In this document: piece by piece, positions 3,651 to 30,005 of the stretch
How the letters are laid out: the number at the start of each line of letters is the position of its first letter
Position numbering within the stretch: position 1 is the first letter of the stretch
IMG/VR virus record: IMGVR_UViG_3300015373_000017
Location: 1 to 37,008 of that record
Direction: 5' to 3' (one strand)
Length of the DNA: 37,008 bases
Origin: a virus
The notes under the pieces: model-generated
What the model was told of the DNA's origin: nothing
The model's database searches: none
What the model saw: only the letters and a program-made list of their open reading frames with translations
Program-made: the position numbers and the translations under genes

Positions 3651-3789
3651 ATTTTTAAGTAGTGAAAAACCGAATAGTGCTATTAATAATATGTTTGTTG
3701 CTTGGATGCGAAATTCAACACAGCGTAAAGATAAAAAAGATAAATCAAAGAGACTCAATAAAAATAAAACACGACACAATAATAATTAA
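3634..3789 (+). CDS. Small basic protein, 51 aa, unknown
   Basis: Begins with MGIILKFLSSEKPNSAINN and ends in a very basic, Asn/Lys-rich tail (KDKKDKSKRLNKNKTRHNNN). The ATG lies inside the last codons of the tape-measure gene (17-nt overlap) and the stop overlaps the next start as TAATG. This tight fit on both sides is the main evidence that it is translated. It fills the place between tape measure and baseplate gene. No family is recognised; a small tail-assembly or nucleic-acid-binding role would be a guess. Confidence 0.5.
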   Translation: MGIILKFLSSEKPNSAINNMFVAWMRNSTQRKDKKDKSKRLNKNKTRHNNN

Positions 3790-4253
3790 TGCAACAGATA
3801 GCACTAACAAAAGGAAAGATAGCATTCATTGATAATGAAGATTATGATTTTTTAATGAATTGGACTTGGCATTATACTAAAGCTGGCGCATCAACAAAAA
3901 TTGGTCACTATAAATATAGACATACTTTGTTGATGCACAGACTTATTATGAACGCCAATGATATAGAACAAGTTGACCACGTAGATAATAATAGACTTAA
4001 TAATCAAAAATATAATCTTAGAAAGTGTACATTGCAGCAAAATCAATTTAATAAGCCTAAACGTGAAAATGTTAGTTCTATTTTTAAAGGTGTTTCGTAT
4101 TGTAAACAAACCGGAAAATGGAGAGCTGTTATTGAACATAATAGTAAAACTATTCATTTAGGAAGATTCATTAATGAAATAGAAGCAGCTATTGCGTATG
4201 ACGAAAAAGCTAAAGAATTATTCGGTGAATTCGCTTATATAAATTTAAGATAA
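3789..4253 (+). CDS. HNH homing endonuclease with AP2 DNA-binding domain
   Basis: 154 aa. The N-terminal part has the usual lead-in of these enzymes (LTKGKIAFIDNEDY). The HNH core has His50, Asp63-His64 in VDHVDNNRLNN and Asn77 in YNLRKC, and would cut DNA with a metal ion. An AP2-like DNA-binding domain follows at about 96-152 (SSIFKGVSYCKQTGKWRA, then GRFINEIEAAIAYDEKA). It is a free-standing mobile endonuclease within the tail operon. Start and stop both sit in TAATG overlaps with neighbours, so the insertion leaves the operon translationally intact. All key residues are present. Confidence 0.92.
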   Translation: MQQIALTKGKIAFIDNEDYDFLMNWTWHYTKAGASTKIGHYKYRHTLLMHRLIMNANDIEQVDHVDNNRLNNQKYNLRKCTLQQNQFNKPKRENVSSIFKGVSYCKQTGKWRAVIEHNSKTIHLGRFINEIEAAIAYDEKAKELFGEFAYINLR

Positions 4254-7200
4254 TGGCTGGACGTGCAAGACATATATTCTATTGTTTTATTTCCAATCCA
4301 AATGGAGAGTATTATAGTTGTGACTACTCCACACTGGGAGAGCCAATTATTTCTCGCTCCGGCAGTCCTATTCCACTAAAAACTAATCCAGCAGACCTGC
4401 AATCATTACAGCCAGAGTTTGCTACTAATAAACAATACTTTTCACTTAATAGGTCTATCACAAATCAACTTCAATTTATAAAAGATGGAGCAGACATACT
4501 TAGGAATTTAGACTATACTGGAAGAGGATTTGAAGAAGATGCCTTTCTTATTATTGTCAAATACAATCCTGTCAGGGGAATCTACGAGTTATACTATACC
4601 GGCAAATTTGATTTCTCAAAGAAAAAGGATGACCCTATTTTAGGCTTCACTATAAATACCGTTGATTCTGGCGTATGGGGTATTCTCAGTCAAAAGGACG
4701 ATATTCAAGTCCAGATACCTTGTTCTGCGTTGAACCCTAAAGCCATTAAAGTTCTCTTTGATGGCGTAACCCTTAAAGCTAAATACTATTGGCAGCCTGT
4801 CGCAGATGTAGACATGGATTTGACTACTTCTGAAAGTAAGTATCTTATTGTTCCATTGGTAATGACTAATACAGATGGTGACAGCTATGGAATTATTTCT
4901 GCTGGACAAGAGTATGATTATTTCCATGACCCAGATATGAACGACTATGTCAGTCTTCATCAATCAGTATATTTTATTAAGACGCAGTATTCAACTGAAG
5001 TGTACTTGGAAGGACCAATGGAGTTTGACATTACATCAGAAGACAAGACTCCATTCAGCATCTCTTTCTATTTGTGGAGAAGTACTGATACTGTAGATGA
5101 TGTTTGGGAACTTCCAGACTATCAGAAACTGTATTTCAAGAGATGGGATAATCTTAATGATAAGCATGACACTATATCCTTTAAACTTAATCATACATTT
5201 GATTTATCTGAGGGAGAGTATCTTGTTTTAGTTGCCTATGTTCATTATCTTGGTGGTGGATTTTTAGATGGGAAGATTAAACCACATCTAACTCCCAAAG
5301 CTCATAATATAATAGCATCTGTGACAACAAAAGTAGTTCCAACAACTTGTTATGCTTTAAGACCATTGGACTTGGGACAACAAATAGTGTCCAAGCTCAC
5401 TGGGGGATTGTTCACAATTCAAAGCAAGTTCTATGTCACCCATAATAAAGTGGTCTGTACTTGCGGGGATGCGTTGCGCGGCGAGCCTTTGGCAATGATA
5501 CAGACCACTTTTAAAGACTGGTACGAGTCCTATGATGCTGGAGATTTTCTGGCTATGAAAATTCTAAATGGGCAGCTATGGATTGAACAGGCGAATGAAG
5601 TCTACAAAGAAAATGGTGAGATTTTAGATATAGGAGAAATAAGTGATTTGTCAATAGAGCATGACACAGAGCATCTGTTAAATAGCTTTGAGATAGGTTC
5701 GCCATCACAAGACTATAGACATAATAGTGGTAGGCTCGAATTTAATGCGCCGACCCAGTTCTCTTTTGAGGTATCCTATATTAAAAATCAGATGAGTTTA
5801 ATTTCACCTTATCGTAGAGATAGCTACGGGATTGAATTTATAAGGCTTGATTATTTTGCAGGAAATTCTCAAGATAATAAAGGCGACAAGGAAGTATTTA
5901 TGCTTGATATTACTGATGAAGTTGGAGATGCCACTACATTTGTATCAAACTATAAAATATACCAAGTTAATAATTCTCCAATTATACCAGAAATAACTTC
6001 TCCAGACCAGGATGAAACTATAACTTATCAACAGCCAAGAATTAGAGGTAATGCTCCAAGTGGACAGATAGTTAACATATATGTGGATTCTGTTTTAGAT
6101 GGAAGTGTAACTGCTATAGCAGGAAATACATGGAGTTATAATATTAAAACAAAGTTAGACCCATTAGTAATTTCAGATAATACTATAATAACTACTGGTA
6201 TTCATAAAGTTGAGGTTACGTTTACAGACTTGACTGGAACAACTGATTCTGTAACATTTACGATACTATCAAGTCCCACAGAAATTGGAATAGTGTATCC
6301 GGCAGATAGAGATAATTTGATAGACAATAAGCCACTATTCAAAGGCAGAGGTCAAACAGGGCAAGTACTAACTATATGGGTTGATTATCTTAGTATTGGA
6401 ACTGTAACTGTTGATAATTCCTGCTGGTGGGAAATACAAAGTTCTATTTTACCCAATGGTATTCATACTCTTACAGTATATTTAGCTGGAGTAGTTATGG
6501 ATACTTGTGTCTTTAATGTTGACACAAACACTGAAATACCAATTATAATTAGACCAGTAGAGCAGTTTACTTTAATAAACAATCTTCCATTAGTTGAAGG
6601 GGTTGCCAAGCCTGGAACATCAGTTAATCTGTATCTTGATTATTATTATAAAACTATTGGAACTGCAATAGCTAATGGAACTGGAAATTGGAGCATACAA
6701 TTAGTTCCAGTTAATAGAGATGATGGCATTACAGTAATTACTCCTATTCCAAATGGAGAGCATGTATTGAGCACTGGATTAGCTATACAGCAAACAGCAG
6801 TGAAGTCTACTGGATATAAATTGAATAGACCTAATTATGATTCTATAACTGGTGTCTACGATAACACTGTATTTAATGTTGAGCTTTCCCCAAAGAGAAT
6901 GCTATTATCTCGTTCTTCATATTGGGCTTCGTTAATGTACCAGAATAAATCTACAGTTATTCAGTATAATGGAAACGATAAGAATCAAGCATTATCCACA
7001 ACTTATCAAGGAAATACAATTCAGGAAAATGCAGATGTACTTATTTCAGATTTAGGTCAAGCGTTATTTCTTCCTATTAAAGCATCATTTAAGACTGAAG
7101 TTCCAGATACCTTCAATGAGGTATTTAACTACTTTAATACTGGTGGGCATATTAAGGCTACATTTCAGGGAAATGACTTATGGTTCTTGCCAATAGGAAG

Positions 7201-28339: not shown

Positions 28340-28723
28340 ATGTTCAAAGTACCGAATGAGTTTAGATTAAGAAACCATGTATTACTTGGCTCAACTAATG
28401 CTATAGGTAATAATGGATTATTTATTATTCCACATTATAAGATATTAGATTACGAGTTGCGCTGCCAAGCATCTGATGGCGAAGGCTGGGAGCATGTTAG
28501 TGTTTCTGTTGGTCGTAAACGAAAAGAGCCTACTCGCTGTCCAACTTGGATAGAGATGTGCTATATTAAGGATTTGTTTTGGCATAGAGAAGATGTAGTG
28601 ATACAATTTCACCCAGCAGAAAAAGACTATATCAATATGCACGAGTATGTATTACATCTATGGAGACCCATTAATATGATGCTACCTATACCTAATCCAA
28701 TTTTAGTTGGGTTAAAGTCTTAG
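28340..28723 (+). CDS. DUF7694-like phage protein, 127 aa
   Basis: Key patterns are GEGWEHVSVSVG, PTWIEMCYIKDLFWHREDVVIQFHP, here split as CPTWIEMCYIKDLFWH and VVIQFHP, and YVLHLWRP near the end. This set is recalled from a protein widespread in phages (DUF7694 or a near relative) with no assigned function. Followed by a tRNA-like RNA. Confidence 0.65.
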   Translation: MFKVPNEFRLRNHVLLGSTNAIGNNGLFIIPHYKILDYELRCQASDGEGWEHVSVSVGRKRKEPTRCPTWIEMCYIKDLFWHREDVVIQFHPAEKDYINMHEYVLHLWRPINMMLPIPNPILVGLKS

Positions 28724-28733
28724 GTGTTCTGGA

Positions 28734-28796
28734 AAGGAGGCATGGAGGCTGAAACCGTGAGGTATTTCAGTTCTGGTTCGATACCAGACCTCCTTC
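28734..28796 (+). ncRNA. tRNA-like RNA without D-arm
   Basis: A perfect 7-bp acceptor-like stem AAGGAGG (28734-28740) / CCTCCTT (28789-28795) and a canonical T-arm TCTGG-TTCGATA-CCAGA (28772-28788) directly joined to it. In place of D- and anticodon arms there is a hairpin CTGAAACC / GGTATTTCAG (28749-28770) with GTGA loop and a 2-nt bulge. At 62-63 nt it is too short for a normal tRNA and has no valid anticodon loop. A tRNA mimic or a decayed tRNA are both possible. Confidence 0.6.
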
Positions 28797-28816
28797 TTTC
28801 TTCTTTTGTAATGTTT

Positions 28817-28845
28817 GCCCCGTCAGTGAGTGGGCGGGGCTTTTT
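28817..28845 (+). terminator. Rho-independent terminator before the glycosyltransferase
   Basis: Stem GCCCCG (28817-28822) / CGGGGC (28835-28840), 12-nt loop, five T. It lies 21 nt after the tRNA-like RNA and 7 nt before the next ATG, so it could also act as an attenuator. Confidence 0.75.
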
Positions 28846-28852
28846 ATCTCTT

Positions 28853-29743
28853 ATGAGTCCACAATACCCAGTCTACATCATATCGAAAGGTAGATGGAGA
28901 ATCAGGCTAACCGCCAATACACTTGAAAGATTTAATCTACAATTCTTCACAGTAATTGAGGAATCTGAGTGGGTCATGTACGCTAACGAGCGAAGACGTG
29001 GAGAGCAATTTCTAATTTTACCAGAACAATATCTTAAAGATTATGATACCTGTGACAATATACCCTATGGAGCAAAATCAGTTGGGCCTGGAGCAGCAAG
29101 GAACTACTGTTGGGAACATTCTATTAGTAATGGATATACAAGTCACTGGGTCATGGACGACAACATTAGTGCATTCTTCAGACAAAATAGAAATTTCCAA
29201 GTACCTGTCACAAGTGGCACAGTACTTAGAATCATGGAGGATTTTTGCGATAGATACGATAACGTGGCTATTGCCGGACCAAACTACGACTTCTTTGCTG
29301 ATGCAAAAGCTAAAATGCCTCCCTACGTACTCAACACCAGAATCTATTCATGCTTATTAATACGTAATTCGATACCCTTTAGATGGCGAGCACGCTATAA
29401 TGAAGACACAGACCTCTCCCTACGAGCCCTTAAATCTGGACTTGTCACAGTTCAATTTAATGCTTTCCTACAGGAAAAGGCTACTACCCAAACCATTGGT
29501 GGTGGCAACACCAGAGAGTTCTATGAAGTAGAGGGTACTTCACCCAAATCAGAGATGTTAGTTAAACTACACCCGGACGTATCACGTCTGATGGAGCGCT
29601 TTAACCGTGCCCATCACTACGTAGACTACCGGGCATTTCGGCTCAATCGCCTCAAAAGAAAGGTGGGAATTGAGATTCCAGATAGAATAAACAACTATGG
29701 TATGAAACTAATAAATGTTAAGACAAATGAAGAAATCAACTAA
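28853..29743 (+). CDS. TET-associated-type glycosyltransferase (TAGT-like)
   Basis: 296 aa from ATG 28853; the frame is open upstream through the terminator and RNA, which argues for this start. GT-A type features: YPVYIISKGRW at the N-terminus, PGAARNYCWEH, Asp102-Asp103-Asn104 in WVMDDNISAFFR (metal/nucleotide-sugar site) and RYNEDTDLSLR near residue 190. This set matches my recall of the TAGT family, which glycosylates hydroxymethylated pyrimidines in phage DNA. No TET/JBP dioxygenase or nucleotide hydroxymethylase is in the window. Codon use is richer in C than in its neighbours, suggesting recent acquisition. Confidence 0.7.
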   Translation: MSPQYPVYIISKGRWRIRLTANTLERFNLQFFTVIEESEWVMYANERRRGEQFLILPEQYLKDYDTCDNIPYGAKSVGPGAARNYCWEHSISNGYTSHWVMDDNISAFFRQNRNFQVPVTSGTVLRIMEDFCDRYDNVAIAGPNYDFFADAKAKMPPYVLNTRIYSCLLIRNSIPFRWRARYNEDTDLSLRALKSGLVTVQFNAFLQEKATTQTIGGGNTREFYEVEGTSPKSEMLVKLHPDVSRLMERFNRAHHYVDYRAFRLNRLKRKVGIEIPDRINNYGMKLINVKTNEEIN

Positions 29744-30005
29744 TCAAGGTATGCTATTTACCGAAGATGAGAATTGGCAGAACGAGTGGAAAGATATGCC
29801 AGAATATGTCCAAGAAGATATTACTTCATTCAGGAGAATAGTTGTACACTTTAGAAATAATGCTGATGTAAATAAGTTTGCTAAACTTATAAATCAGATT
29901 ATCAAACCCAATCAGCCATCACTGTGGTTTCCAGAACAAGAAATTAAAAGATATAAAGATATAAGATATGTTGATAGCAAAGACGAAAATCAGGAGTTGC
30001 TGTAG
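29727..30005 (+). CDS. Conserved phage protein with QGMLF near N-terminus, 92 aa
   Basis: Start at ATG 29727 (MKKSTNQGMLFTED); ATG 29715 would add four residues. WQNEWKDMPEYVQEDITSFR, IVVHFRNNADVNKFAKLI and LWFPEQE form a pattern known from phage proteins often placed beside DNA-modification genes, function unknown. QGMLF resembles a sliding-clamp-binding peptide. Overlaps both neighbours. Confidence 0.65.
   Translation: MKKSTNQGMLFTEDENWQNEWKDMPEYVQEDITSFRRIVVHFRNNADVNKFAKLINQIIKPNQPSLWFPEQEIKRYKDIRYVDSKDENQELL

Follow-up and report, generated by a model that had tools for sequence, protein, structure and literature searches.

The short region at positions 28734-28796 of the IMG/VR viral contig analyzed here (37,008 bases; this whole stretch is referred to as the window) resembles a tRNA that lacks its decoding parts, which raises the question of whether it encodes a functional tRNA mimic, the remains of a tRNA gene, or a structure unrelated to tRNA. 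The window encodes a primase whose closest counterparts occur in Cellulophaga phage phi46:1, Nonlabens phages P12024S/L and Flavobacterium phages (36-30% identity), and the window is therefore likely to represent a phage of the Bacteroidota type, as judged from this relationship. Among viral contigs, the best primase relative is 43% identical.

The element occupies an intergenic site and, like its neighbors, lies on the plus strand. Upstream is a gene for a 127-aa DUF7694 protein (28340-28723; PF24746, phrog_7839), whose stop codon is located 10 nt before the element. Downstream are an intrinsic-terminator-like feature (28817-28845), comprising the hairpin GCCCCG...CGGGGC (28817-28840) and a TTTTT run, and then a gene for a TET-associated glycosyltransferase (TAGT, PF20691; 28853-29743). 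An open frame (28724-29743) runs across the element; it was not taken as coding, since TAGT aligns with its relatives from residue 1 onwards. No other tRNAs were found in the window. The presence of the TAGT gene suggests that the phage DNA is hypermodified. The window also encodes an HNH homing-type endonuclease (3789-4250), flanked by structural genes.

The element is built of three helices, whose 18 pairs (7 + 6 + 5 bp) are all of the Watson-Crick type. The 5′ acceptor strand (AAGGAGG, 28734-28740) pairs over its entire length with CCTCCTT (28789-28795), which is followed by the discriminator C28796; no CCA is encoded, and position 3:70 is a G-C pair (G28736-C28793). The place of the D-arm is taken by an 8-nt linker (CATGGAGG, 28741-28748) with no D-stem, so that the absence of this arm, already noted in the preliminary description, was confirmed; the linker contains a second GGAGG (28744-28748), capable of competing with the acceptor strand. 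The T-arm (28772-28788), TCTGG-TTCGATA-CCAGA, has five pairs out of five, the consensus TTCGANN loop and the G53:C61 pair, while the A at position 60 is unusual. At the anticodon-arm position (28749-28770) there is a hairpin composed of a 6-bp stem (CTGAAA/TTTCAG) and a 10-nt loop, CCGTGAGGTA. This hairpin had been described as bulged, with a GTGA tetraloop; the hairpin itself is present, but the tetraloop (CC-GTGA-GG) requires additional CC/GG pairs and a UA bulge, and the 10-nt loop is an equally valid reading. The statement that there is no anticodon loop holds in either case, since the loop (in RNA form CCGUGAGGUA, if 10 nt long) is non-canonical, is not of 7 nt and contains no U33.

We examined how often such an arrangement may arise by chance, using a motif with 7 + 5 pairs, all Watson-Crick, a TTCRANN loop and a total length of 40-78 nt. 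It was found neither in 400 first-order Markov simulations of the window nor in reversed phage sequence (2.87 Mb), and the 63-nt stretch folds better than its shuffled versions (z -2.7). T-arm-like hairpins alone are common: five pairs were formed in 33 of 422 T-loop motifs of coding-marked DNA (a set that includes some tRNAs). The observation draws its weight from the combined pattern and from its location between genes, the T-arm by itself not being rare. ARAGORN called no tRNA and no tmRNA at the element, the Rfam model RF00005 did not match it even at E ≤ 1, and none of the Rfam families scored above its cut-off, the best weak match being Spot 42 (23.4 of 80 bits). The combination of an acceptor and a T-arm with no D-arm is a real feature of the sequence.

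A descriptor consisting of an acceptor and a T-arm with a free middle part was applied to contigs carrying DUF7694 relatives. This search is seeded on the T-loop, and therefore biased towards intact T-arms, and the numbers obtained are small. The analogues identified include (i) a 47-nt element with 12 of 12 Watson-Crick pairs (L092/L155, 1820-1866), whose viral record matches Mesonia sp. HuA40 at 100%, (ii) a 67-nt element (L084/L147), (iii) two or three elements of 44-65 nt in the 59-kb contig G008 (L148 78-122, L148 7203-7267 and L225 1357-1400) and (iv) an 87-nt element with a 26-nt anticodon loop (L158, 616-702), in the contig that holds the closest DUF7694 relative. The same contigs contain about five normal tRNAs. 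In the reversed-sequence control, no analogue was found at a score of ≥20 with the strict T-loop. Most of the elements are located in intergenic gaps, a few bases from a stop codon, and in the tallied contigs the aberrant elements not linked to attachment sites have near-intact acceptors (again within the limits of small numbers and a T-loop-seeded search). The repetition of this architecture in related phage contigs supports grouping the window element with phage RNAs that are derived from tRNA, do not decode and occur repeatedly. The motif GGTTCGANNCC had 17 matches in the 47 contigs with DUF7694 relatives, against 4 matches of the reversed motif; no enrichment was observed among 43 TAGT contigs (7 versus 13). 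The short elements L225 1077-1121, L225 1357-1400 and L148 7203-7267 of contig G008 are all mismatched at acceptor pair 7:66.

Four DNA-pattern scans, three of viral contigs and one of bacterial genomes, yielded no copy of the element; the matches were either real tRNAs (Trp, His, Pro) or a coincidence within a coding region (L139). Both flanking proteins have relatives, but the gene order there is different: a gene resembling window positions 29715-30005 leads directly into TAGT, and the nearest relative of the DUF7694 gene (L082) is followed by another protein gene, with no tRNA-like element. For the flanking proteins of the other elements, relatives were found only in the same contig, with the exception of one distant match, and MAFFT produced no sensible alignment of the short elements. 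Two apparent similarities were discarded. The sequence GGTATTTYAG, which precedes the T-arm in both the window and L092 elements, does not define a family (one match in 2.9 million viral contigs, inside a protein gene), and a 93% match to the L092 element in a Flavobacteriaceae genome is a chance similarity of another sequence that lacks the T-arm.

The anatomy of the element, its intergenic position and the recurrence of its architecture in related phages are established, and its tRNA ancestry is likely. The reading that we tentatively prefer, at somewhat short of even probability, is that of a tRNA-derived, non-decoding RNA gene acting as a functional mimic, composed of an acceptor/T-arm stack and one plain hairpin. 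It is favored by the Watson-Crick nature of all 18 pairs despite the loss of the D-arm and the anticodon loop, and by the joint motif being absent from simulated and reversed DNA and recurring in related phages. The element would be co-transcribed with the DUF7694 gene, in a transcript ending at the terminator near 28845. The acceptor/T-arm stack would be recognized by the tRNA end-processing enzymes of the host: cleavage by RNase P at about 28733/28734 and by RNase Z after about 28796, followed by the action of the CCA-adding enzyme, would give a stable RNA of ~62 nt, and its release may define where the upstream message ends. Such an RNA could also be a decoy for proteins that read the acceptor and T-arm and not the anticodon.

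The acceptor/T stack is the part of tRNA that RNase P, RNase Z, CCA-adding enzymes and EF-Tu recognize, and minihelices serve as substrates. An enzyme able to read such a decoy does exist: Cas12a3 of a Bacteroidetes bacterium cuts tRNA tails via the acceptor, T-arm and CCA, and its cleavage activity survives stepwise loss of the tRNA loops (PMC12851939). Since both this nuclease and the above enzymes read the stack, a minimal acceptor/T RNA is, by analogy, a plausible decoy and an equally plausible 3′-end former.

Comparison with known systems places the element apart from each of them. It shares with canonical tRNAs (RF00005, including phage tRNAs) the 7-bp acceptor, the 5-bp T-stem and the TTCGANN loop, and lacks an encoded CCA, as do several tRNAs of related contigs, but it has neither a D-arm nor a 7-nt anticodon loop with U33, and is missed by the respective search tools. 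The tRNA-like domain of tmRNA is also an upper tRNA half with a replaced anticodon arm; however, tmRNA has G3:U70 and a tag reading frame, while the element has neither and is only 62 nt long. The tRNA-Other of Bacillus cereus and other non-decoding pseudo-tRNAs are tRNA-like small RNAs with a role outside decoding, but tRNA-Other, unlike the element, is a near-complete cloverleaf. Mitochondrial t-elements, known from mitochondria as tRNA-like RNA processing signals, offer a further parallel: in both cases a tRNA-like fold is placed behind a stop codon, a location at which mRNA ends could be set by RNase P and RNase Z, although processing of the window element is only putative. The open-access literature searched yielded no paper on phage elements of this type.

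Because standard tRNA finders miss elements of this kind, many tRNA-like RNAs of phages may have escaped annotation. It is conceivable, although we consider it doubtful, that Bacteroidota phages encode an unrecognized class of minimal non-decoding tRNA-like RNAs (acceptor plus T-arm, 44-87 nt), matured by tRNA enzymes of the host and serving as decoys against tRNA-targeting defenses or as mRNA 3′-end formers. If functional, these would amount to tRNA minihelices that occur in nature and are subject to selection, and they might act as decoys against defenses that cut or modify the acceptor end of tRNA.

The main alternative is a functionless relic of a phage tRNA gene, in which the D-arm has been deleted and the anticodon loop changed, with the acceptor and T-arm not yet eroded. 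This is a serious possibility, standing close to even with the functional mimic, and the preliminary view of a tRNA mimic in preference to random decay was consequently upheld only in part: there is support for a tRNA-derived element that keeps the acceptor and T-arm with no decoding parts, an arrangement that recurs in other phages and is not explained by an attachment-site tRNA, but the preference over decay was not sustained, in view of the spectrum of deformed tRNAs and the predicted out-competition of the acceptor described below. The retention of 18 out of 18 Watson-Crick pairs after at least two separate lesions speaks against a relic, as does the fact that aberrant elements in related contigs mostly retain the acceptor and T-arm, subject to the bias and sample size of the survey. 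The failure to find an orthologue in our scans, and hence any covariation, counts against the functional reading. If such elements are relics, they form a record of phage tRNA gene loss and a caution against counting phage tRNAs by score only.

Isolate phages of Flavobacteriia provided evidence on both sides. Their tRNAs form a graded series that starts with canonical ones and ends with badly deformed ones, and deformed tRNAs are common in Cellulophaga phages; deformation of every degree is what decay would produce, and it favors a relic over a functional mimic. Phage phi13:2 (L272) carries an 81-nt tRNA-like element (497-577) with a perfect acceptor and T-arm, and at the same locus, between the same two genes, phages phi18:3, phi46:3 and phi19:3 have a terminator-like hairpin (AGACCTC...GAGGTCTTTTT) with a T-run. 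We counted this replacement for the functional reading, as it would fit a shared 3′-end role, but on sequence comparison it may also reflect plain gain and loss, and such fast turnover among close relatives is expected of relics. In phi38:1 (L255; 20678-20817, minus strand), a 140-nt tRNA-like RNA is encoded directly upstream of a gene for a phage RtcB tRNA-splicing ligase. Its acceptor, D-like arm and T-arm are intact, and large hairpins replace the anticodon arm and lower half. Relative to Calle_1, two of its pairs differ: one by a compensatory change on both sides, the other, in the T-stem, by replacement of G-U with G-C (pairs read by eye). Structural constraint therefore appears to act on at least one of the deformed tRNA-like RNAs of phages, an observation likewise counted for the functional reading. 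Several low-scoring tRNA-like genes are unannotated in the deposited records of Cellulophaga phages (L255 37519-37588, 15681-15750 and 38540-38619; L254 31691-31761). A 53-nt Rfam match in phi46:3 and phi18:3 was judged spurious.

The acceptor and T-arm had been called perfectly formed, which is correct with regard to their pairing potential (7/7 and 5/5); the acceptor, however, is predicted to form only in the excised 62-63-mer. Its predicted pairing probability is 0.99 in the 63-mer and falls to 0.06 in a transcript with 10 nt of 5′ flank (28724-28796), where GGAGG 28744-28748 pairs instead with CCTCC 28789-28793 (0.94); the same competing pairing is predicted for longer transcripts. The outer pairs of the middle hairpin are retained in every context (0.8-1.0), with a weak sixth pair, and the inner pairs of the T-arm reach about 1.0 in the longer contexts. 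The same method with the same flank gave acceptor probabilities of 0.98-1.0 for six of seven other aberrant elements and 0.96 for L148b; 27 normal phage tRNAs averaged 0.85, with two values near zero, both for tRNA-Glu, which illustrates that such folding programs can be wrong for genuine tRNAs as well. Given these values, the acceptor is, according to the models, less secure in the window element than in its analogues. This argues against a functional mimic, and a predicted acceptor that is not robust in the precursor is in agreement with a relic.

The folding results also bear on a third, improbable explanation, i.e. that the element is an intergenic RNA with a structure of its own and no relation to tRNA. 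In this case GGAGG 28744-28748/CCUCC would close a three-way junction with an outer purine-pyrimidine helix, situated beside the terminator, and the 7-bp acceptor would be a coincidence of register in purine/pyrimidine tracts. This junction is the dominant predicted fold of every tested transcript longer than the 63-mer, its pairing is facilitated by two copies of GGAGG and a long pyrimidine tract, and the chance frequency of T-arm-like hairpins given above is in its favor. On the other hand, the 7 + 5 bp geometry and the T-loop match tRNA exactly, and related phages show the same architecture with no such tracts.

It is highly improbable that the element is a decoding tRNA devoid of the D-arm, such as metazoan mitochondrial tRNA-Ser(AGY). 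As in D-armless mitochondrial tRNAs, the acceptor, 8-nt linker, anticodon-position hairpin and T-arm follow in the correct order, but in place of a 7-nt anticodon loop there is a 10-nt loop or a tetraloop that has no U33 and provides no plausible 32-38 loop, and bacterial ribosomes are not known to use D-armless tRNAs. The probability of an attP site, i.e. a host tRNA fragment at the point of phage integration, is negligible: the element does resemble the attP tRNA fragments of temperate phages in that its T-arm and 3′ acceptor strand lie between phage genes, and 3′ fragments of this type occur in related contigs (L156, L203/L227, L226), but these have CCA and no 5′ acceptor, the opposite of the window element, which matches no host tRNA (CTGGTTCRANNCCAGACCTCCTT occurs in 0 genomes of 84,980 species, a set possibly excluding the true host), and there is no integrase among the window proteins scanned (part of the ORFs of a possibly partial contig).

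In the survey, T-arms that are intact but have no acceptor correspond either to attP-type fragments with CCA or to halves of a permuted gene. The latter is a candidate circularly permuted tRNA gene in L145 (G020; about 6815-6935, plus strand), in which the 3′ half (GCGTC ACGGGTTCGAGTCCCGT TTAGCCC) precedes the 5′ half (GGGCTAA TA GCTCAGTGGTAGAGC G GAAAG). The halves are separated by a 29-nt linker with complementary ends (CCTAA/TTAGG), and a normal tRNA-Asn is located downstream.
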